In this document: positions 5,901 to 36,015 of the stretch, one piece after another
Layout of the letters: every line of letters begins with the position of its first letter
How positions within the stretch are numbered: position 1 is the first letter of the stretch
Assembly: GCA_018267965.1 (NCBI GenBank)
Contig: JAFDXK010000002.1
Location: forward strand, 248,001 to 312,000
Source: Bacteroidota bacterium
GTDB lineage: Bacteria; Bacteroidota; Bacteroidia; Chitinophagales; Chitinophagaceae
Direction: 5' to 3'
DNA length: 64,000 nt
Notes under the pieces: generated by a model
What the model saw: the letters and a program-made list of their open reading frames with translations, nothing else
The model's database searches: none
Told to the model about the DNA's origin: nothing
Position numbers and translations under genes: made by a program

Positions 5901-8051
5901 TTATAGATTTTTTACGTTGTACTTAATTGTTGCTGCTTTTTTCAGCGCTTCCATATAAGCACCTTGTCCTCCACCACGCATTTGCATGGTCATATTCATT
6001 TGCTGCTCCTTAACCATATTCGGGTCCATTGTAACCGGTTTGGTGAATTTGCTGAGGATGGTTGCAAAATAAACTCCATCTTCTCCTTTGAAAGGCGGTG
6101 TTACAGTATTTGGTTTTGATGACGCAGAGAAGAGATAGCCGATTAATTTTGGAACATAGCCCAGGTGGTTTACATATACTTGTGCCCAGTTGAAAGAATC
6201 TACAGGAACAACCGGTTGTTTTGACGCTTGTGCAATAGACTCAACAGAATTCATTGATTTGTATTTCTCAGCAATCATTTTCAGGCGCTTTTCATTCCTT
6301 ACTATAGATTCTAACGCCGGTCTGTTGTTTGCATCTATTTTCATCAATCCCTTAGGTTGGATGCCAGCTATTTTAGCCACAACATATCTTTGGCCAACGG
6401 TAAATACGGCCGAAACATCTCCTTCTTTTCCTTCGTATAGCCAACGTATGATTTCGCGGCTGTTTCCAATTCCATTAATCATGAAGTCGTTTTCTTTGAT
6501 ATTTTCTGCCACGCGTTTTCCACCAACTTGTTTTTTGGCAGCTTCGTCGAATAATTTTGCAACTCCGTTTTTGCTGGCAAACTCTGATGCCTTTGCATAA
6601 ATATCAGAATTTGTATTTTCTCCGGCATCAAGCGCCTTGGATATTGTAGCTATTTTAGCTGCAGTCTGAATACCTTTTTGATCTACTATTTCTATATAGT
6701 GGTATCCTGAGTATGCATCATTTTTAACTTTAATTGTTTTTTTGTCACCGGCTTTGCCATCAAAAATGAAATCGCCGAACTCTTTTACAAGCCCATCTTT
6801 TTGTTGCAAAGTAAACGTGTATTCACCACCTGTTTTATTACTTCCCTCATCTTCGCTGTATTTTTCAGCAACAGCTTTAAATTCAGCACCGCTATGCAAC
6901 ATAGCCATAGCGCTGTCTAATTTTTTATCTGCTGCAGAATCTGACGCAACCTGGGCACCGCGTTCTTCAGTTTTTACAAGGATGTGCCTGCATATTACAG
7001 AATCAGGGTATTCTCTTTTTTCCACTACTTTAGAAATCTTATAGCTGCCCTGTTCGAAATATGGACCGTAAACGGCACCAGCAGGTAACTTAAGAATAGA
7101 GTCTGCATAGATTGACATGAAAGATCTTTTGTTTACAAAAGATGGTTTGTATTGATCGTCAGAGTTACGATTAACAAGACTTTCAACATCGATTGTGTTT
7201 TCCAAATCTGTTTTAAGTCTTGTCACAGTACCTAAAGATTTCGCTGTATCTTCTGCAGATGGCATTACATCAAACGATACATATTCTATAGAACGTGATT
7301 CTTGTTCCTGAGTATATTGTTTTTCATGCCTCTTCATATAATCAATCATGTCTTCGTCTTTCACAGGCACATCTTTATCTGCGATGGTTACATATGGCAC
7401 TTTTACAAACTTAATGTTTACGTAATCTTTTTGTTCGCGAGCTTTGGCTTCAACCACAAACTTTGGAACGTATGTTGCCTTAGTTATCAAGGCATTATAT
7501 TTTCTGAGCCTGTTATTTTCTACTACGTAAGCTTTGATTGTTTTCCACTCTTCCATCAATTTGCCGGTTGGGTCTATTTCGGCAGCTTGCTGTTCAAACG
7601 CTTTTACATACTGCGGGTTGAATTGTTTTGTATTAGGATCTGCAAACCATTTGTATTGTTGTACCACAGGATCAGGAAATTGTCCGTATATCAATTCTTT
7701 TTCTTCATCAGGGGTTGTGGTAACGCCTGCTTTTTCACAATCAGCATAAGTAAGACGTTTATTAATAAGATCATTCAGCACTTGTTGTTCCAACTGTGCG
7801 CGCATGTTTTCATCCAGTGGTTTTCCATTCTGAGTATATGAATAGAGTATTTCATATTCTTTTTGTTTTTGAGAATACTCTTTAAAATCTATCGGGTCGC
7901 CGTTCACTTTTGCAACACTGCTGTCGTGACCAAACAATTCTCCGAAGCGGCCGCTTGCGGCATCCATTAATATAAAACCTACAAGAGAAAGAGCAATAAT
8001 AAAACCCGCCAGTTTAGCGTACCTACTTCTAATTTTCTGAATTACAGACAT
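5901..8051 (-). CDS. Membrane-anchored peptidylprolyl isomerase (PpiD/SurA-like foldase)
   Basis: A 716-residue protein with one N-terminal membrane anchor (residues ~14-31, FIIALSLVGFILMDAASG) and a long periplasmic part. A SurA_N-like chaperone region covers ~45-200. A parvulin/PPIC domain lies at about 352-455 (RHILVKTEE ... FGDFIFDGKAGDKKTIKV), and a second C-terminal helical segment follows. PpiD-type proteins sit at the Sec translocon exit and help outer-membrane and secreted proteins fold, a job that suits a T9SS organism. A Met/Gln-rich tail near the C-terminus (MTMQMRGGGQG) is unusual. It is transcribed alone from a good promoter at 8081-8109. Confidence 0.88.
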   Translation of the reverse strand: MSVIQKIRSRYAKLAGFIIALSLVGFILMDAASGRFGELFGHDSSVAKVNGDPIDFKEYSQKQKEYEILYSYTQNGKPLDENMRAQLEQQVLNDLINKRLTYADCEKAGVTTTPDEEKELIYGQFPDPVVQQYKWFADPNTKQFNPQYVKAFEQQAAEIDPTGKLMEEWKTIKAYVVENNRLRKYNALITKATYVPKFVVEAKAREQKDYVNIKFVKVPYVTIADKDVPVKDEDMIDYMKRHEKQYTQEQESRSIEYVSFDVMPSAEDTAKSLGTVTRLKTDLENTIDVESLVNRNSDDQYKPSFVNKRSFMSIYADSILKLPAGAVYGPYFEQGSYKISKVVEKREYPDSVICRHILVKTEERGAQVASDSAADKKLDSAMAMLHSGAEFKAVAEKYSEDEGSNKTGGEYTFTLQQKDGLVKEFGDFIFDGKAGDKKTIKVKNDAYSGYHYIEIVDQKGIQTAAKIATISKALDAGENTNSDIYAKASEFASKNGVAKLFDEAAKKQVGGKRVAENIKENDFMINGIGNSREIIRWLYEGKEGDVSAVFTVGQRYVVAKIAGIQPKGLMKIDANNRPALESIVRNEKRLKMIAEKYKSMNSVESIAQASKQPVVPVDSFNWAQVYVNHLGYVPKLIGYLFSASSKPNTVTPPFKGEDGVYFATILSKFTKPVTMDPNMVKEQQMNMTMQMRGGGQGAYMEALKKAATIKYNVKNL

Positions 8052-8080
8052 ATTGACTAATATATTTATTACAGGGACGG

Positions 8081-8109
8081 CAAATTTATAGGAAAAATTG
8101 AGATAACAA
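8081..8109 (-). promoter_or_regulatory. Promoter of the PpiD-like foldase gene
   Basis: On the minus strand TTG (8109-8107) is followed after 18 nt by TAAATTTG (8088-8081), a full -33/-7 pair of the Bacteroidota type. The predicted start of transcription is about 20-25 nt before the ATG at 8051. Confidence 0.6.
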
Positions 8110-8210
8110 AGGTATTAATTAGCCAAAACAGGCTATACTGCTGTATATATACATCAAATAGAATATATATGCTCTCTTAGTTAATACTTATTATCATTTT
8201 ATCTCCAGTA

Positions 8211-8285
8211 TTTTAGGGTGTGGATAGGTGTTGATAATTGTCTAACAAAGTTTCACTTGTTATTTTTTTAGGGTGTGAATAGCTG
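8211..8285 (+). repeat. Pair of 20-bp direct repeats in the candidate origin
   Basis: TTTTAGGGTGTGGATAGGTG (8211-8230) recurs at 8266-8285 with two substitutions (18/20), 55 bp apart. Each copy contains a DnaA-box-like core (TGTGGATAG and TGTGAATAG). The repeat supports an iterated protein-binding array. Confidence 0.6.
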
Positions 8286-8559
8286 AATAGTTTTTATTTA
8301 TCCTTTTTTAAGTTCAGTAATCAACATCGTTCTACGATATTCACATCTTGGTTTTTATGCTCATCATCACTTACTAACAATAAACATTATTATGTGGATA
8401 TGCTTTGTTAGATAGTGTTTGCTTTGGGGATAACAGTTTATTAGTTAGTGGATGAATATTATTCTTTTATTTTGCAAATAGGATTATGTTTTTCTTTCCC
8501 CAAATCCACAGGGGTAATAATAATAATCCTTTATTAATAATTTATAATACTATTATTAT

Positions 8560-9567
8560 ATGATTGTGAATTTTGAGAGTGCAGTTGAGAATTTAAGCAA
8601 GAACGGTTTTTTAGATATTGAGATAGATGTAAGATTAGATTTATTTGATGAGATTGAAAAGCTGAAGAAAGAAAAGAATGCAATCATACTTGCACACTAT
8701 TACCAGGAACCAGATATTCAGGATATTGCAGATTACATAGGTGATAGTTTAGGATTAGCACAAATGGCTGAAAAGACAACAGCTGACATGATAGTCTTTG
8801 CTGGTGTACATTTCATGGCAGAAACTGCTAAGATTCTTAATCCTACTAAAAAGGTTGTTATTCCTGATTTTAAAGCAGGATGTTCATTGAGTGATAGTTG
8901 CCCTCCTGAATTGTTTAAAAGGTTTAAAGAACAACATCCTGACCATATTGTTATTTCATACATTAATTGTTCAGCTGGTATTAAAGCATTGAGTGATATT
9001 ATCTGTACATCATCAAATGCAAAAGTAATTGTTGATAGTTTGCCTAAAGACCAAAAGATAATTTTTGCACCTGATAAAAACCTAGGAGCATATATCAACA
9101 AAACGAGCGGCAGGGAAATGGTTTTATGGAACGGTGCGTGTATGGTACACGAAATATTTTCTTTGGAGAAAATTACGAAACTGAAGACAAGACATCCTGA
9201 AGCAAAATTGATAGCTCACCCCGAATGTGAAGAAGCTATTTTGAGGATTGCAGACTTTATAGGTTCAACGACACAATTGTTGAAATACACACAACAGAAG
9301 GAATTTAATTCATTCATTGTAGCTACAGAATCAGGAATTTTGCACCAGATGGAGAAGCTATCTCCGGAAAAGACATTTTTAGCCGCACCAACGGACAATG
9401 CCTGTGCTTGCAATGATTGTCCTCACATGAAGCTCAATACGCTCGAAAAACTGTATTTATGCATGAAATACGAGCAACCTGAGATAGTAATGGATGAGCA
9501 ACTGAGATTGGCAGCTAAAAAGCCTATAGACAGAATGCTGGAAATGAGTAAAGCGTTAGGAATATAG
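8560..9567 (+). CDS. nadA: Quinolinate synthase NadA
   Basis: NadA condenses iminoaspartate with dihydroxyacetone phosphate to quinolinate in de novo NAD synthesis, using a [4Fe-4S] cluster. The 335-residue protein shows the family hallmarks: ILAHYYQEP near residue 43, Cys108 in [10 protein letters not shown], Cys194 in WNGACMVHE, and Cys284/Cys287 in the C-terminal CNDCPHM. The length is typical of the shorter bacterial form. The ATG at 8560 is the first in frame and sits directly at the edge of the A+T-rich stretch. nadB and nadC are not in the window. A terminator follows at 9589. Confidence 0.96.
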
Positions 9568-11606: not shown

Positions 11607-11639
11607 ATAGGCGAGGTTTATACCTCGCCTATTTTTTTT
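11607..11639. terminator. Strong bidirectional terminator between convergent genes
   Basis: An 11-bp perfect stem ATAGGCGAGGT/ACCTCGCCTAT with a 4-nt loop, followed on the plus strand by eight T. The minus-strand gene stops at 11629 inside the right arm and T-run, so that gene's own last codons form part of the hairpin. On the minus strand the tail is less T-rich. Confidence 0.85.
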
Positions 11640-13266
11640 GATACTTAATTTGTCCCTTTGAAATCGTATAGACTATAGATGTTTTTAGTATTTCGTTTTC
11701 AGGAATAGTCATTATGTCTTTATCAAGTATCACGAAATCTGCATCCATACCTATAGCTACACCTCCTTTTTCTTTCTCCATAAAGACTGATTTTGCAGCC
11801 CAGGTTGTCATCCCCTTTAAAGCTTCTTCTCTGGTTAGTGCTTTTTCTTTCATAAAGCCATTTGGCGGGTTTCCGTTTTTATCTTTTCTGGCGACTGCAG
11901 TATAGAATGTAGCAAGAGGGTTAATATCTTCTACGGGGAAGTCGGTGCCCAAAGCTATCCATCCATTTAGTTTGAGTAGGTTTTTATAGGAGTATGCTTC
12001 AGGCAATCTTTTTTCTCCAAGCCTGTTTACTGCCCAAGGCATATCTGAAATGGCATGTGTAGGCTGTACAGACGGAATAATTGAATAATCACTAAAATAC
12101 ATATAATCATTGTAATTTACAACTTGTGCATGTTCTATTCTCCAGCGCTTATCATTCTTTGTTTTCAAAGCATCAGCGTAAATTTTTAGTACCATACGAT
12201 TGGCACTGTCACCAATTGCGTGTGTACAAACCTGCCAGTTGTGTTTAAGAGCTAATTCAGTTAGTTTTTTTATCTGTTCAGGTTTTGTAAGGATCAAGCC
12301 TCTTTGTCCCGGCATATCTGTGTAATCTTCCAGCAGGCAGGCTCCGCGAGATCCCAGGGCGCCATCTGCGTAAACCTTTATTCCGGCTATTCTTAATTGT
12401 CCTTGTTGGTATGGGCCACTCGGAATGTATGTGTCAAGCGTTGCACTGTCGTTGCCAGCGAGCATAAGGATATTTGCTATTGAGAGGCTATTATTTTCAT
12501 AGCACTTTTTAAGAAGTTCAATATCATTCATTGTAACACCACAATCCACTACCCCTGTAAGGCCCAGGGCGTAACAATTTTTCTCCATTTTTTGAAGGTA
12601 TTTTATTGCATCTTTTTCAGGTAAATTCCCTATTAATTTCTCAACCTTTTCCATAGCATTATCTATCAAAATTCCTGTCAATTTTCCATTCTTCTTCTCT
12701 ACGATTCCGCCATCTATTTTTGATGATATATCAATGCCAGCTTGCTTTAGTGCATAGCTATTACATAATATTGCATGACCATCTACACGTTTTAATATCA
12801 CTATTTTATCAGGAAAAAGACTATCTAAAACTGTATTATTGGGGAAGTCTTTTTTCTCCCAATCATTCTGATCCCAACCGCGTCCGTATATCCACCCAAT
12901 TGTGTTGGTTTTATTGTACTCTATAAGCTTATTTATAACGCCTGAGAATGAGCTGGTTTTAGTCAAATTGCACTGGTATAAGGTTAAACCGTATGGTGTA
13001 AAGTGGCAATGAGCATCAATAAAGCCAGGATAAAGGTATTTTTCGGGTTCTTTTATGTTGTTTGCTGCGACATAGCACTTATTTATTTCTTCTGCTCTAG
13101 CTATAGCGACTATTTTTCCGCCCTTTATCGCTATACAGTTTGCATTCGATGTCGAATCTGTAGCTGTATATATGCCCGCTACTGTTATTATATTGTCTAC
13201 CTGGTTCCGTTGTTGACAGGAGAGCATGGCTATTGCCAACACAAATATGATTAACGAATGTTTCAT
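11629..13266 (-). CDS. Amidohydrolase lipoprotein (YtcJ-like, amidohydrolase_3)
   Basis: A 545-residue metal-dependent hydrolase. The N-terminus is a lipoprotein signal (IAMLSCQQ, lipid-modified Cys17), so it should be anchored in the periplasm. The TIM-barrel signature HCHFTPYG follows PGFIDA near residue 85. A Lys-containing segment and His residues in CTHAIGD and WRIEHAQ, plus the late GTDFPVEDINP, match the YtcJ/amidohydrolase_3 family, whose members hydrolyse varied amide, imide or formamide bonds. The substrate is unknown. A promoter lies 4 nt before the ATG and overlaps a parS site, so ParB spreading or binding could influence it. Confidence 0.87.
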   Translation of the reverse strand: MKHSLIIFVLAIAMLSCQQRNQVDNIITVAGIYTATDSTSNANCIAIKGGKIVAIARAEEINKCYVAANNIKEPEKYLYPGFIDAHCHFTPYGLTLYQCNLTKTSSFSGVINKLIEYNKTNTIGWIYGRGWDQNDWEKKDFPNNTVLDSLFPDKIVILKRVDGHAILCNSYALKQAGIDISSKIDGGIVEKKNGKLTGILIDNAMEKVEKLIGNLPEKDAIKYLQKMEKNCYALGLTGVVDCGVTMNDIELLKKCYENNSLSIANILMLAGNDSATLDTYIPSGPYQQGQLRIAGIKVYADGALGSRGACLLEDYTDMPGQRGLILTKPEQIKKLTELALKHNWQVCTHAIGDSANRMVLKIYADALKTKNDKRWRIEHAQVVNYNDYMYFSDYSIIPSVQPTHAISDMPWAVNRLGEKRLPEAYSYKNLLKLNGWIALGTDFPVEDINPLATFYTAVARKDKNGNPPNGFMKEKALTREEALKGMTTWAAKSVFMEKEKGGVAIGMDADFVILDKDIMTIPENEILKTSIVYTISKGQIKYQKK

Positions 13267-13270
13267 AGGC

Positions 13271-13300
13271 CAAAGATATAAAAGGTTCCACGTGAAACAA
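13271..13300 (-). promoter_or_regulatory. Promoter of the amidohydrolase, overlapping parS
   Basis: On the minus strand TTG (13300-13298) is followed after 19 nt by TATCTTTG (13278-13271), ending 4 nt before the ATG at 13266. The parS site at 13284-13299 fills the spacer between the two boxes. The tight spacing to the ATG predicts a leaderless transcript. Confidence 0.6.
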
Positions 13301-13336
13301 TCACAAGCTTAGCCAGCAACCGTTTCACGTGGAACA
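13284..13336. promoter_or_regulatory. parS: Pair of parS (ParB-binding) sites
   Basis: GGTTCCACGTGAAACA at 13284-13299 and CGTTTCACGTGGAACA at 13321-13336. Each matches the widely conserved parS consensus TGTTNCACGTGAAACA at 15 of 16 positions (the second on the minus strand). The cores form a perfect 14-bp inverted repeat of each other with a 23-nt spacer. parS is bound by ParB/Spo0J and clusters near chromosomal origins. They lie in the 94-bp gap between the amidohydrolase and the first beta-barrel gene. A terminator role for the same inverted repeat cannot be fully excluded. Confidence 0.85.
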
Positions 13337-13360
13337 AAGAGATAATTTATTGAAAATGAA

Positions 13361-14023
13361 TTAATTAAGAGAATATGAAAGGCCTAAGCGAGCACAGAAT
13401 TTAGAATTATTCCCCCTTGGAGAAAATCCACTGAGAACCTTTGTGGGGTCTATGTTAGCTTGAAACGCTGCCGATATTGATAAACTCTTGTTGATTTTAT
13501 AAGAAGAGTATGCATTTATGCCAGAATATAAAGAGCAGTTTTTAGTTTTATTAGAACGCGTCTGAACGCTATTATCATCATATATATCATGCTCGAAATA
13601 GGCATCCTGAAATGTTTGTATCGTTGTATTAACCCCAAGATATTGACTAAAAGCTTTCGCTTTTACAATTAAGTATTCAGTAGATATGCCCCAATCTATG
13701 CTTTTACGTGTATCGGAAGCATAATAATGATAAGAACCGAAATCAAAAGGAACAATATAGCCTTGATCAGTATTGGTGTTACTATAATAATCGGCAGTTA
13801 TCATAAATGCCCAATTATTATATTCCATGCGAACAAATAGTCCATTTTCCCAGGAAGTGCCAGGGTTTGAGGCTAGATACTCTTCGCCTTCATGAGCTGT
13901 GCCTCCATCGTTAGTGTTTAAATAATACCACTTACTATATCCGGTACGCATGCCCAACGCTACACTTTGCGAATAGCTTACTTGCGAAAATAATAATAAT
14001 GCTACTAGTGCTATTTTGTTCAT
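13361..14023 (-). CDS. Small outer-membrane beta-barrel-like protein, paralogue 1
   Basis: 220 residues with a signal peptide (ending SYSQ after ~18 residues). The mature part alternates short beta-strands rich in Tyr, Trp and Ser, and ends CARLGLSYSLN, like an 8-stranded outer-membrane barrel. The N-terminal ALGMRTGYS resembles LQAGVRTGS in the neighbouring gene, so the two look like diverged tandem copies. I know no function. It is downstream of its paralogue with a 25-nt gap and probably co-transcribed. The parS pair lies just beyond its 3' end. Confidence 0.6.
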   Translation of the reverse strand: MNKIALVALLLFSQVSYSQSVALGMRTGYSKWYYLNTNDGGTAHEGEEYLASNPGTSWENGLFVRMEYNNWAFMITADYYSNTNTDQGYIVPFDFGSYHYYASDTRKSIDWGISTEYLIVKAKAFSQYLGVNTTIQTFQDAYFEHDIYDDNSVQTRSNKTKNCSLYSGINAYSSYKINKSLSISAAFQANIDPTKVLSGFSPRGNNSKFCARLGLSYSLN

Positions 14024-14048
14024 AACCTAACCAATTGATTTACAATAA

Positions 14049-14729
14049 TTAAAAGCGATATCCAACGCCAAATGCGATTATGAAACGAACTTTTGAGGAG
14101 TGTAATACATCGAATGCGCCGAAGCTATTGATAAATGGAATGCTTTGAATAGCCATTGTGTTACTGAATACAATATGCTTAGACAGGTTAACGTATAAAG
14201 TATTTGATAGGCTTATTTGAGGATCCATAGAGTGCCCATATCCACTACGATTGTTTGTTGTATTTGGGTCGTCGTCAAAATGATAGTAGGTAGTTTCTTT
14301 ACTGTAGGTTCTCAAAATGCCTAAGGAGTATCCGAAATAATCTGAGAATCTCGGGTTTTTGCGGTGTGCATTTGTTATCGCTCTTTGAGCAGATATATTC
14401 AATTCAAATACATCTTCCTTTGCACGTATTTTATCATCGGTATATAATCTACCTGATATATTGGGCTCCTGCCATGGAGCACAGTAAGATACCCAAGGAC
14501 CGTGTTCGTACGTATAGCTGTAATGCGATGAGTTCAGTTCAAACGCCCACCCATTTTTAGTTTCATACCGGGCATATATCCCTTTATTCCAAACAGTGTG
14601 TTCTGCCTGCATAGAATTGTCTATACTATTAAGATAGCCGCTACCTGTCCTAACGCCGGCCTGTAAGCCTTGCGCATAAAGGGTTTGGAAGGAAATTAGT
14701 AACGCAGGAATTAATAATAATCTTTTCAT
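14049..14729 (-). CDS. Small outer-membrane beta-barrel-like protein, paralogue 2
   Basis: 226 residues: signal peptide (MKRLLLIPALLISFQTLYAQ), then repeated amphipathic strands and a C-terminal strand ending in aromatic residues (VGYRF), the usual signal for BAM-assisted barrel insertion. It is related to the next gene downstream by its N-terminal pattern, GNW/GWAF strands and length. The function is unknown. It is divergent from mnmG, with 97 bp between the start codons. Confidence 0.6.
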   Translation of the reverse strand: MKRLLLIPALLISFQTLYAQGLQAGVRTGSGYLNSIDNSMQAEHTVWNKGIYARYETKNGWAFELNSSHYSYTYEHGPWVSYCAPWQEPNISGRLYTDDKIRAKEDVFELNISAQRAITNAHRKNPRFSDYFGYSLGILRTYSKETTYYHFDDDPNTTNNRSGYGHSMDPQISLSNTLYVNLSKHIVFSNTMAIQSIPFINSFGAFDVLHSSKVRFIIAFGVGYRF

Positions 14730-14808
14730 AGCTTATGATTGATTCTTGAGATTAAAGGATTTTGTATTTCAATAAGACAGATAACGCAAATTATAAGTTG
14801 GTAGTATG

Positions 14809-14816
14809 TAACTTTG
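14809..14816 (+). promoter_or_regulatory. -7 box (TAACTTTG) for mnmG
   Basis: A full TAnnTTTG match ending 10 nt before the mnmG ATG. A TTG exists upstream (14798-14800) but only 8 nt away, too close for a -33 element. The 5' leader would be very short. Confidence 0.55.
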
Positions 14817-14826
14817 CCGTCCATTT

Positions 14827-16695
14827 ATGTTTAGGGAATACGATGTCATAGTGGTAGGTGCTGGTCACGCCGGCTGCGAAGCAGCAGCAGCGGCAGCCAA
14901 CATGGGTTCAAAAGTACTTTTGATAACCATGAATATGCAGACTATTGCCCAAATGAGCTGTAATCCTGCAATGGGTGGTATCGCGAAGGGACAAATTGTG
15001 AGGGAAATTGACGCAATGGGCGGATATAGTGGTATTGTCAGCGATAAGAGCATGATACAGTTCCGTATGCTCAACAAGTCCAAAGGACCGGGAATGTGGA
15101 GTCCACGCACCCAAAACGACAGGATGCTCTTTGCCCAAACATGGAGGGATATGCTGGAGGCAACCCCTAATGTGGACTTTTGGCAAGACATGGTGAAACA
15201 AATTATTGTTTCACGTGAAACTGTTGTAGGTGTAGTGACGGGTATGGGACAAGAAGTGCGAGCCAAATCTGTGGTTTTGACAAATGGAACTTTCCTCAAT
15301 GGGGTGATTCATATTGGCGAAAAACAATTTGGAGGAGGACGTATTGGAGAAAAAGGCGCGACCGGTTTGACCGAACAATTAACCGAATTGGGTTTTGAAA
15401 GCGACAGATTAAAAACAGGAACACCGCCGAGGATTGATGGACGAAGCCTTGACTATAGCAAAATGGAGATTCAGGATGGGGATGAAGAGATTGTAGGGTT
15501 CTCTTATTTACCTATTGAACGAATTAAACCACAGCAACAAAGGGGATGTTGGGTAACTTATACCAGTCCTGAAGTACATGAAATACTGAAAAGCGGTTTT
15601 GATAAATCACCGATGTATCAGGGAAGGATACAAGGAAGCGGGCCGCGGTATTGCCCAAGTATAGAAGATAAGGTGACAAGGTTTGCCGAAAGGGAGCGCC
15701 ACCAACTGTTTGTAGAACCTGAAGGCTGGAATACTGTAGAGATCTATGTGAATGGCTTTAGCACATCATTGCCGGAAGAAGTACAATACAAGGCACTGCA
15801 GATGGTGCCCGGTTTTGAGCATTGTAAGTTTTTCAGACCAGGATATGCTATTGAGTACGATTATTTCCCACCAACACAGCTGCAATTCACATTAGAAACA
15901 AAGCTAATAAAAAACCTGTTTTTTGCCGGTCAGATAAATGGAACAACGGGTTACGAAGAAGCAGCTTGCCAAGGTTTGATGGCTGGAATCAATGCGCACA
16001 GAAACGTTCACGGGTTGGAGCCTGTAGTATTACAAAGAAGTGACGCCTATATAGGCGTATTGATAGACGACCTGATCAATAAAGGAACAGATGAACCTTA
16101 CCGTATGTTTACCAGCAGGGCTGAATTCCGTACGTTATTAAGACAGGATAATGCAGATTTGAGATTGACAGAGTTGGGACATAAAATTGGTTTGGCCAGC
16201 GATGAACGCTTGGCATTGATGCAAGCAAAAAAAGAAAAAGTAGAAAAAGTAAAAAATACACTTGCTGATTTTCCTGTGGAACCAAATGACGCAAATCCAT
16301 TTTTGGAAACAGTTGGTAGTACGCCACTAAATGAAAGGAGCCGTGCTTTGAAATTGTTATTGCGCCCGGGAATAAGCATAAAAGAAATGCAGGATGCATT
16401 GCCAGCTTTAAAAGAAGCACTAAACGAAGATGACGCATTGGTACTGGAGCAAGCAGAGATACAGCTGAAGTATGATGTGTATATAGAAAAGGAAAAAGAG
16501 TTGGTGAAAAAAATGGCTACACTCGAAGACCTCATCATACCTGCTTCATTCAACTATGATAACCTGCAAGCCTTGTCTACAGAGGCGCGTCAGAAGCTGA
16601 AGAAAATAAAACCACATACATTAGGACAAGCAAGTCGTATAAGTGGTGTTAATCCGAGTGATGTACAAATTCTCATGGTATTTATGGGAAGATAA
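14827..16695 (+). CDS. mnmG: tRNA uridine-5-carboxymethylaminomethyl modification enzyme MnmG
   Basis: MnmG (GidA) works with MnmE to place the carboxymethylaminomethyl group on U34 of several tRNAs. At 622 residues it is full length. It has the FAD-binding GAGHAGCEAA (residues 11-20), SCNPAMGGIAKG, RRGCW-like QQRGCWVTYT, and the late NGTTGYEEAACQGLMAGINA segment, all family hallmarks. gidA is a classic origin-neighbouring gene in many bacteria. A perfect 14-bp parS core lies within the coding sequence at 15208-15221, encoding part of the IVSRETVV stretch. recX follows after 5 nt, so the two are probably one operon. Confidence 0.98.
   Translation: MFREYDVIVVGAGHAGCEAAAAAANMGSKVLLITMNMQTIAQMSCNPAMGGIAKGQIVREIDAMGGYSGIVSDKSMIQFRMLNKSKGPGMWSPRTQNDRMLFAQTWRDMLEATPNVDFWQDMVKQIIVSRETVVGVVTGMGQEVRAKSVVLTNGTFLNGVIHIGEKQFGGGRIGEKGATGLTEQLTELGFESDRLKTGTPPRIDGRSLDYSKMEIQDGDEEIVGFSYLPIERIKPQQQRGCWVTYTSPEVHEILKSGFDKSPMYQGRIQGSGPRYCPSIEDKVTRFAERERHQLFVEPEGWNTVEIYVNGFSTSLPEEVQYKALQMVPGFEHCKFFRPGYAIEYDYFPPTQLQFTLETKLIKNLFFAGQINGTTGYEEAACQGLMAGINAHRNVHGLEPVVLQRSDAYIGVLIDDLINKGTDEPYRMFTSRAEFRTLLRQDNADLRLTELGHKIGLASDERLALMQAKKEKVEKVKNTLADFPVEPNDANPFLETVGSTPLNERSRALKLLLRPGISIKEMQDALPALKEALNEDDALVLEQAEIQLKYDVYIEKEKELVKKMATLEDLIIPASFNYDNLQALSTEARQKLKKIKPHTLGQASRISGVNPSDVQILMVFMGR
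15207..15222. promoter_or_regulatory. parS: parS site inside mnmG
   Basis: TGTTTCACGTGAAACT: a perfect 14-bp palindrome GTTTCACGTGAAAC and 15/16 to the parS consensus. It lies in coding sequence; intragenic parS sites are common near bacterial origins. With the pair at 13.3 kb it makes a cluster of three within 2 kb. Confidence 0.87.
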
Positions 16696-33931: not shown

Positions 33932-34701
33932 TAATTTCAAATACTCTTTATTGAAAAATATTGCACGACGATTTGTCATGCATTATTTTATATTTATAAT
34001 TTTCACATTAAATATTATTGCTTTTTGTTTTAATTATTTGTCGATTTACATTAAGAGCATATTGCAAATAATACCTTCAATTTGCGATATAATTATATGT
34101 ATATATTATGCTTAATGTTTTGCGAGCTTATGAACACACTATTCAAATATTAAACATTGTATCATCCATTATTATACTTTCTTAAGAATCTATAGAATAA
34201 AATTTCACAGAAAACAGGATAAATTAAAAGCGATACTATAAATTAATAATAATATTTATTAATATAAATAATATAATAATTAAATTATTTAAAAAATAAA
34301 ATAATTTATAATAATATTTATTTTGTTGTTAACTGTCAATGGGGAGTATCTATAGGTGACATTAATTAATAATTATTTATATTATTAATTAATAAAAATA
34401 ATTAATATAAAATGTGTTTATTTTATTAATAGTTCAATAACTACTACATATTTTATTTTATTTATGTTAAATAATTATATTATACATTATATTTTTTTTG
34501 TTTTGAATAATTTTTCTGTTATTTATTCCAATAACAGTAATAAAAGTCTAATTATTGGAACTAAATGTTCAAAATGATAATTTAATGAATTTAAAACGTG
34601 AACTAAAATAATAAAATGAACAGTTATTATTGAATATTAATATTTTAGTACAAATTATAAATTACCCACAAAAAGTAGCAGTAATTAAATTTTTTGTTAT
34701 G
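33932..34701. other. 770-bp A+T-rich non-coding spacer between convergent genes
   Basis: No convincing gene is present. By hand count 34141-34680 has 79 G or C in 540 bases (about 15%). Bases 34237-34324 are 88 consecutive A/T, and 34361-34413 another 53. Within it are an 8-bp stem CTGTTATT/AATAACAG (34516-34537) and an overlapping 9-bp inverted repeat TTCCAATAA/TTATTGGAA (34526-34534 and 34552-34560). One DnaA-like TTACCCACA occurs at 34662. Since both flanking genes end here, promoters are not required, which makes the length and composition notable. An unrecognised small RNA or decayed insertion is possible. Confidence 0.7.
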
Positions 34702-36015
34702 TTATTTTTTTCCTGCTAACGTTAAGGCAGACTTATAAACTTTAAGACATCTTTCTCTAGCTTCATTATGCATAACTATAGGTGATGGGTACGTTAACTC
34801 CTCATACTCCGGTACCCATTTTTTTATATACTCATGTTTGGGGTCAAATTTTTCTGTCTGCAGATAAGGGTTGAATATCCTAAAATAAGGTGCCGCATCA
34901 CAGCCACATCCTGCTGCCCATTGCCATCCTCCATTATTACTGGCAATATCGAAGTCCAAAAGTTTTTTAGAAAAATAGGCTTCGCCCCACCTCCAGTCTA
35001 CCAGCAGGTGTTTGGTTAAGAAGCTGGCAACCACCATCCTCACTCGGTTGTGCATATAGCCTGTTTCATTAAGCTCACGCATGCCGGCATCTACTATCGG
35101 ATAGCCAGTTTTGCCCATACACCACTTTTCAAACTCCGATTCATTATTGCGCCACTTAATATTATCAAATTCTTCATGAAAAGAAGTGTTTACTACTTTA
35201 GGAAACTGCCAAAGTATCATATGGTAGAAATCTCGCCATATTAATTCATTAAAAAGCTTTTCATTTATAGGTAGTATTTGTCTGGCAAGTCTCCGTATGC
35301 TTATAGTTCCAAATCTTAAATGTGTACTAAGTCGAGTTGTCCCTTTTATAGAAGGAAAATCCCTAGTATTATGATAATTCTCTGCAATCCCTTTTTCCAA
35401 TTCAGGGAGCGTGTACACTATCTCAGTTTTTTTAAAACCAACCTCCTCTATTGAAGGCATAGATTTAGCATCTGATTTATAAAAATTTTTATAATATTTT
35501 TCTGTCGGATATGATTTCAGATAGAATGATGAAAGAGTCACTTTAAACTTTCTGCTATACGGAGTGTATACAGTATAAGGTTCTCCGTTATCCTTAAGGA
35601 TCTCATCTTTTTCAAATAGTACCTGGTCTTTGTAGGTTTGAAACCTGATGCCATTATAGTTCAAATAATGTGAAATTTCGGCATCTCTCTTTTTTGCATA
35701 AGGTTCATAATCATGATTAGTATAGACTGAGCTTATATCGTATTCTTTACATATTTTCTTAAAACAATCTATCGGCCTACCTATATATATATTTAAGCAA
35801 CTACCCATTTTCTGTAATTCATTATTAATTGATGTTAAAGCCTGATGAATAAAATCAACTCTTTTATCATGTTTATCCTCTAAATCATTAAGGATGTCAG
35901 TATCAAAAATGAATATGGGTAAGACAGGATGTTTACCTTTCAAAGCATGAAATAATCCGGCGTTATCATTAAGCCTAAGGTCCCTTCGAAACCAAAAAAT
36001 AGATACGGTACGCAT
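34702..36015 (-). CDS. phrB: Deoxyribodipyrimidine photolyase (class I CPD photolyase)
   Basis: A 437-residue cryptochrome/photolyase family protein. The N-terminal Rossmann domain begins WFRRDLRLNDNAGL. The FAD-binding domain has TTRLSTHLRFGTIS, ELIWRDFYHMI, GYPIVDAGMRELNETGYMHNRVRM, KHLLVDWRWGEAYF, and the FAD-contacting DFDIASNNGGWQWAAGCGCDAAPYFRIFNP. It repairs UV-induced pyrimidine dimers using light. The length is slightly short but complete. It is flanked on its 3' side by the A+T-rich spacer, which could mark recent insertion of this gene; that is inference. Confidence 0.95.
   Translation of the reverse strand: MRTVSIFWFRRDLRLNDNAGLFHALKGKHPVLPIFIFDTDILNDLEDKHDKRVDFIHQALTSINNELQKMGSCLNIYIGRPIDCFKKICKEYDISSVYTNHDYEPYAKKRDAEISHYLNYNGIRFQTYKDQVLFEKDEILKDNGEPYTVYTPYSRKFKVTLSSFYLKSYPTEKYYKNFYKSDAKSMPSIEEVGFKKTEIVYTLPELEKGIAENYHNTRDFPSIKGTTRLSTHLRFGTISIRRLARQILPINEKLFNELIWRDFYHMILWQFPKVVNTSFHEEFDNIKWRNNESEFEKWCMGKTGYPIVDAGMRELNETGYMHNRVRMVVASFLTKHLLVDWRWGEAYFSKKLLDFDIASNNGGWQWAAGCGCDAAPYFRIFNPYLQTEKFDPKHEYIKKWVPEYEELTYPSPIVMHNEARERCLKVYKSALTLAGKK

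Follow-up and report, generated by a model that had tools for sequence, protein, structure and literature searches.

A probable parS centromere cluster at mnmG, with one site written into the gene, in a Chitinophagaceae-like member of the Bacteroidota

The 64,000-nucleotide stretch analysed here (the window; contig JAFDXK010000002.1 of a Bacteroidota bacterium, positions 248,001 to 312,000) carries three close matches to parS, the site recognized by the partition protein ParB, beside and within mnmG (gidA), which encodes the tRNA uridine 5-carboxymethylaminomethyl modification enzyme. Very probably, the three sites together act as the centromere of the chromosome, a parS cluster belonging to a ParABS system, in a bacterium of the Bacteroidota that resembles the Chitinophagaceae, and would be bound there by ParB. 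Comparison with other genomes makes it likely, moreover, that the centromere of the Bacteroidota was ancestrally anchored at mnmG, parS remaining there as parAB and dnaA moved away, and that in one Chitinophagaceae clade the centromere was written once into the codons of mnmG, changed the protein and was kept by selection at the DNA level, one 16-bp stretch thereby serving both as centromere and as coding sequence.

The parS sites and their partner proteins

The parS consensus TGTTNCACGTGAAACA is matched with one mismatch at three places in the window, each time at 15 of 16 positions. Site 1 (GGTTCCACGTGAAACA, 13284..13299, plus strand) and site 2 (TGTTCCACGTGAAACG on the minus strand, 13321..13336) are intergenic and inverted relative to each other. 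They share a 94-bp gap bounded by the start of an amidohydrolase gene (11629..13266, minus strand, Pfam Amidohydro_3), whose start codon lies 17 bp downstream of site 1, and by the 3' end of a minus-strand open reading frame (ORF 13361-14023). Site 3 (TGTTTCACGTGAAACT, 15207..15222, given on the plus strand but matching on both) is located inside mnmG (14827..16695, plus strand; Pfam GIDA and C-terminal domains, with solved MnmG homologues), where it covers codons 128–132, GTT TCA CGT GAA ACT, translated as V-S-R-E-T; its core has a base offset of 381 counted from the mnmG start codon. The original prediction of three such 16-mers within 2 kb, two of them intergenic and inverted and the third in mnmG, is thus borne out, except that it spoke of a perfect match, which none of the three 16-mers is.

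With up to three mismatches allowed, the window contains 9 strand-matches versus 2.4 expected (at most 8 in 100 shuffles). In the whole assembly of this genome (3,744,029 bases, 13 contigs), places with two mismatches are dispersed across contigs C5, C6, C9 and C10, and no site other than the three in the window comes within one mismatch of the consensus; as had been anticipated, the motif is confined to one 2-kb region and not spread around the genome. The core GTTNCACGTGNAAC is present in three copies in the assembly, where about 0.17 would be expected by chance from base composition (if GC is 39%), and its backward control in none.

The cluster had also been predicted to come with a ParB gene, and the genome does have one, on contig C5, which matches TIGR00180 in a profile search (E 5e-54). 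Its product comprises the ParB_N, HTH_ParB and ParB_C domains and is similar to solved ParB/Spo0J chains; the ORF directly upstream encodes a ParA with an AAA_31 domain, the two genes making up a parA-parB operon. Residues R173 and G201, as well as N178, characterize the parS-type ParB, as opposed to Q173 and R201 in the Noc type (PMC7383237). The ParB of this genome matches R173, N178 and G201, with the expected spacing of 23 residues between N178 and G201, and displays Y and R at positions 179 and 184, which are lysines in Noc. Nucleoid occlusion sites (Noc-NBS) are scattered over the chromosome. Noc-type sites are ruled out here, given that the sites occur in one region only and that ParB carries R and G; the dispersal of Noc sites is described in PMC4331003. 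Finally, the genome encodes a full-length SMC. Such a protein scores above the family cut-off in all six genomes searched (G000, G004, G018, G032, G060 and G061), unlike the situation in two gut Bacteroidetes, for which PMC10197239 reports no known condensin homologue.

The link between parS and mnmG across the phylum

The relatives used for comparison are designated by group codes; those with names are Bacteroidota, mostly Chitinophagaceae or unclassified Bacteroidetes metagenome-assembled genomes, although some labels, such as Azovibrio, look wrong. The parS core is present in 52 of the 59 genomes of a search among relatives and in 111 of the 118 genomes of a search across the phylum, both counts including the genome studied here. 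Of the 30 loci listed from the relatives search, 27 have the core no more than 1 kb from mnmG. The same distance is found, upstream, downstream or on both sides, in 26 of 30 distant genomes, which were picked for having the core, one from each of 28 families and two from a 29th. For a closer view, we used the best 80 of 578 confirmed stretches from named genomes with an MnmG, which therefore represent a sample of close relatives; exclusion of L151, whose 5' end is lacking, left 79 loci, 63 of which have the core at most 2.5 kb upstream of mnmG. Note that in L238 (G151) the core is located in roughly the final twelve codons of the mnmG frame, a possible second case of parS inside mnmG, in another family.

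Two sets of exceptions weigh against a general link. The other four distant genomes have no core in the fetched stretch (mnmG plus 1.5 kb on each side), and 15 of the 79 loci have no exact core inside mnmG or nearby upstream; six of these 15 possess one-mismatch sites within about 230 bp upstream and nine do not. As for the seven relatives without the core, five have mnmG together with one-mismatch sites within about 310 bp upstream, G008 yields only a weak MnmG match of 87 residues and G041 yields none; a ParB match was found in all of the seven but G048. G048 (93% complete; L218) has TGTTCCACGGGGAACA, which departs from parS at one base, three times just upstream of mnmG, yet no ParB match was found in it; the specificity of ParB may have changed, or the search may have overlooked the protein. 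CACGGG variants are also seen in G018 and G037.

It is quite conceivable, at somewhat short of an even chance, that parS is found here only through ancestry: mnmG would have been linked to the origin in an ancestor, and its association with parS would be inherited gene order with no function of its own. gidA is indeed listed among the 'origin genes' that possibly formed an ancestral cluster (PMC2099444), and in three of eight single-contig genomes of the phylum (G060, G061 and G087) no more than about 60 kb still separates dnaA from mnmG. However, the distance between parB and mnmG ranges from about 300 kb (G060) up to 2.2 Mb (G018) across all eight of these genomes, and dnaA is at least about 580 kb from mnmG in five of them, while parS and mnmG remain together; besides, the core of the inner site is preserved base for base. 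This explanation bears on why the sites are there rather than on what they are, and it may be partly true. It is very unlikely, by contrast, that the sites near mnmG serve as a regulatory operator, bound by a transcription factor that recognizes the same palindrome: they do lie close to one gene, with sites 1 and 2 just upstream of another start codon, but they conform to the parS consensus, a parS-type ParB is encoded in the genome, the region is near the skew switch (see below), and the placement of the sites varies by family (upstream of mnmG, downstream, inside it, or on both sides in several), which is odd for an operator.

The site inside mnmG

The inner site is the most constant and most strongly conserved of the sites. 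The core is found at mnmG offset 381 in 31 of the 79 loci (378, one codon less, in L142); the inner set, counting the window, amounts to 32 of 80 mnmG genes, and all 32 read GTT TCA CGT. An upstream core is also present in 30 of the 31 named genes having the inner site, but exact upstream sites range in number among clade members from none (L122) to three, with four in L041, and their positions vary. On a tree of the 80 MnmG proteins (site region removed, quick method, LG+G4, no bootstrap, root not inferred), the inner-site trait requires one change, versus 25 on average with shuffled labels, and the 32 genes constitute one side of a branch with a Shimodaira–Hasegawa-like approximate likelihood-ratio test (SH-aLRT) value of 98. 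We infer that the inner site was gained once, on the branch separating the clade, consistent with the absence of any site at codons 128–132 in 29 distant genomes with a mapped mnmG. L147, which has no inner site and is placed by the tree away from the inner-site group, displays V-S-S-S-G at codons 128–132, the first two being GTT TCA; it resembles a decayed or nascent site.

The residues found at these codons in the siteless genes are different, most often V-K-D-G-R (13 of 47), suggesting that the site altered the protein in frame. In a sequence alignment with the solved MnmG chain 9hip, which we take to be the E. coli protein, S-R-E-T of the window faces E-N-D-R.

We compared the codons of the 27 inner genes of 622 codons, leaving out five of other length; pairwise codon identity in this set spans 31 to 85%, with a median of 39%. 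Out of 199 columns in which the amino acid is invariant and has at least four codons, only three rely on a single codon, namely V128 (GTT), S129 (TCA) and R130 (CGT), codons that account for 24%, 12% and 20%, respectively, of all codons for V, S and R in these 27 genes. At the inner site the 27 genes share GTTTCACGTG, their longest stretch of identical DNA, with 10 bases, the next longest being 8; the inner 16-mer is TGTTTCACGTGGAACA in 23 of the 27 genes, with four variants found once each. As a control, 200 draws of 27 genes were made from 47 full-length siteless genes, and no draw showed any single-codon column. One point tempers this comparison: the control set is somewhat more diverged (median codon identity 34% versus 39%) and offers about 113 invariant columns versus 199.

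Since V128, S129 and R130 are single-codon, unlike the other invariant degenerate columns, the inner site is kept by selection at the DNA level and is not a chance match within a gene. V128, S129, R130 and T132 are, it is true, invariant as residues in all 27 aligned genes, as they would be if the site were a by-product of protein-level selection for V-S-R-G/E-T and the parS match incidental, but this explanation, rejected by the codon test and its control, is exceedingly improbable, considering the invariance of minority codons, which no other invariant degenerate column shares, the different residues of most siteless relatives and the additional core upstream of nearly all the inner-site genes.

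Replication origin, neighbourhood and known systems

The position of the cluster relative to the replication origin was assessed from GC skew, which gives a coarse picture (20-kb samples; three single-contig relatives at 20 or 40 points). On contig C6, where the parS sites lie at 261-263 kb, third-position GC skew stays below zero in the five samples taken up to 198 kb, then is positive or near zero from 208 kb, except in the last sample (-0.038 at 912 kb), and the sign change is situated about 50-80 kb from the sites. In G032, the cumulative-skew minimum lies within the sampled stretch holding parS, and in G018 the third-position minimum lies within the stretch holding mnmG. Altogether, the C6 skew, the skew minima of relatives (within about 210 kb) and a DnaA-box cluster about 5 kb away (see below) support the location of the parS cluster near the replication origin. 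The prediction that the window is centred near the origin therefore holds for nearness but not for centring, the origin rather likely being near the left end of the window. Several observations fit this location less well: the C6 switch is near 180-210 kb and not at 261 kb, the whole-sequence minimum of G018 is 210 kb away, and in G004 about 163 kb separate parS from the minimum, which itself belongs to a flat zone spanning about 400 kb.

dnaA is commonly used to define the origin, yet the two do not always coincide (PMC10197239). In the genome studied here, dnaA is on contig C7, separate from the contigs of parS (C6) and parB (C5), and a dnaA-adjacent origin is not supported. In two relatives dnaA lies on the side of the skew maximum, about 1.9 Mb (G032) and 1.8 Mb (G018) away from mnmG. 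Its distance to that maximum is about 0.3-0.6 Mb in G032; for G018 it is about 0.1 Mb when the third-position maximum is taken, but 1.7 Mb for the whole-sequence one.

A 508-bp AT-rich gap (8052..8559, 27% GC), about 5 kb from the parS sites, may be the origin itself (oriC). It separates two divergent genes, one coding for a PpiD/SurA-like peptidyl-prolyl isomerase (5901..8051, minus strand, Pfam SurA_N_2 and Rotamase) and the other, nadA, for quinolinate synthase (8560..9567, plus strand, Pfam NadA), and it contains four DnaA-box-like 9-mers on the minus strand: CTATCCACA (8219..8227), TTATCAACA (8229..8237), ATATCCACA (8393..8401) and TTATCCCCA (8425..8433). Of 15 sequences inspected for this gap (the window and 14 stretches), ten had it whole. 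L302 breaks off within nadA, L304 gave no match to nadA, and in L306 of G035 and L291 of G018 mnmG alone was matched and no cluster of boxes was seen; these four were left out, and L266 of G032 was handled apart. The ten homologous gaps contain 36 boxes with at most one mismatch, two to five each, versus 1.9 expected and at most six in 300 shuffles. In addition, 12 boxes, five of them exact, are found upstream of nadA in G032, and six in G060, which belongs to another family, whereas only one of 97 other 20-kb samples from four genomes reached four boxes in 500 bp.

The case for this candidate has to be set against the following points. Each of the four 9-mers of the window is one mismatch off, and over the whole window such 9-mers number 27 versus 21 expected, thus nothing unusual overall. 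The gap of G004 holds only two boxes, not above background, and neither nadA nor a box cluster was found near mnmG in G018 and G035. Part of the conservation of the gap may also be due to promoters. A box cluster beside mnmG is rejected as a phylum-wide rule: it was found in one (G060) of six further single-contig stretches covering about 6-8 kb on each side of mnmG and was absent from the other five (G018, G061, G063, G087 and G098). At the ppiD-side end of the gap, GGACGGCAAATTTA is identical in all ten sequences (window and nine relatives); instead of belonging to oriC, it may function as a promoter or leader element.

Elsewhere in the window, two tandem minus-strand ORFs (13361-14023 and 14049-14729) lie between the parS pair and mnmG; they share about 34% identity over about 85 residues, and no Pfam match was found for either. 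The stretch 34001-36000, which overlaps ORF 34702-36015, has a GC content of 0.285, as against about 0.36-0.40 in most neighbouring samples, and is possibly acquired DNA.

We propose that ParB, encoded on another contig beside ParA, would load as a clamp on each parS palindrome and slide into the DNA around mnmG, the resulting complex being both the cargo of ParA and a loader for the SMC of the genome. In this way the freshly replicated origin, for which the ppiD-nadA gap at a distance of about 5 kb is the probable candidate, would segregate first. As to the inner site, it would have arisen once at codons 128–132, converting residues of the K-D-G-R type into S-R-G/E-T, and have been retained since then as a DNA element that is also translated.

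This arrangement resembles the chromosomal ParABS-parS systems, exemplified by Bacillus Spo0J/Soj and Caulobacter ParB, in its 16-bp palindrome, its origin-near cluster, its parA-parB operon and its ParB recognition residues. It differs from them in that parAB is unlinked from parS (carried by a different contig in this genome, and at a distance of about 300 kb or more in all eight single-contig genomes) and in that parS is anchored at mnmG, in this clade partly within mnmG codons. parS sites within coding genes are shared with Pseudomonas aeruginosa PAO1, where nine of ten predicted sites are so placed (PMC4368675), and with Caulobacter, where sites lie in essential or costly genes (PMC5815017); here, the same codons are involved across a whole clade, these codons are invariant and the peptide is altered, a comparison that does not appear in the available text of these two accounts. 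parS clusters together with GC skew also mark the origin in gut bacteria including Bacteroidetes, dnaA not always being there, in PMC10197239, whose main text has no occurrence of mnmG or gidA; the mnmG link and the nadA-side candidate oriC are added here. ParABS, origin-near parS and parS inside genes are all already known. Among literature titles and abstract starts, we found none that describes parS at mnmG in the Bacteroidota or a parS site conserved at the level of its codons, bearing in mind for both that Livny et al. 2007, reportedly the main parS survey, may already record some sites.

In conclusion, since the skew minimum is closer to parS than to dnaA in G004, G018 and G032, the three genomes with sampled skew among the five whose dnaA is remote, parS beside mnmG could act as an origin marker, and the inner site of mnmG would provide a clear example from nature of selection acting on a segregation element within a conserved coding sequence.

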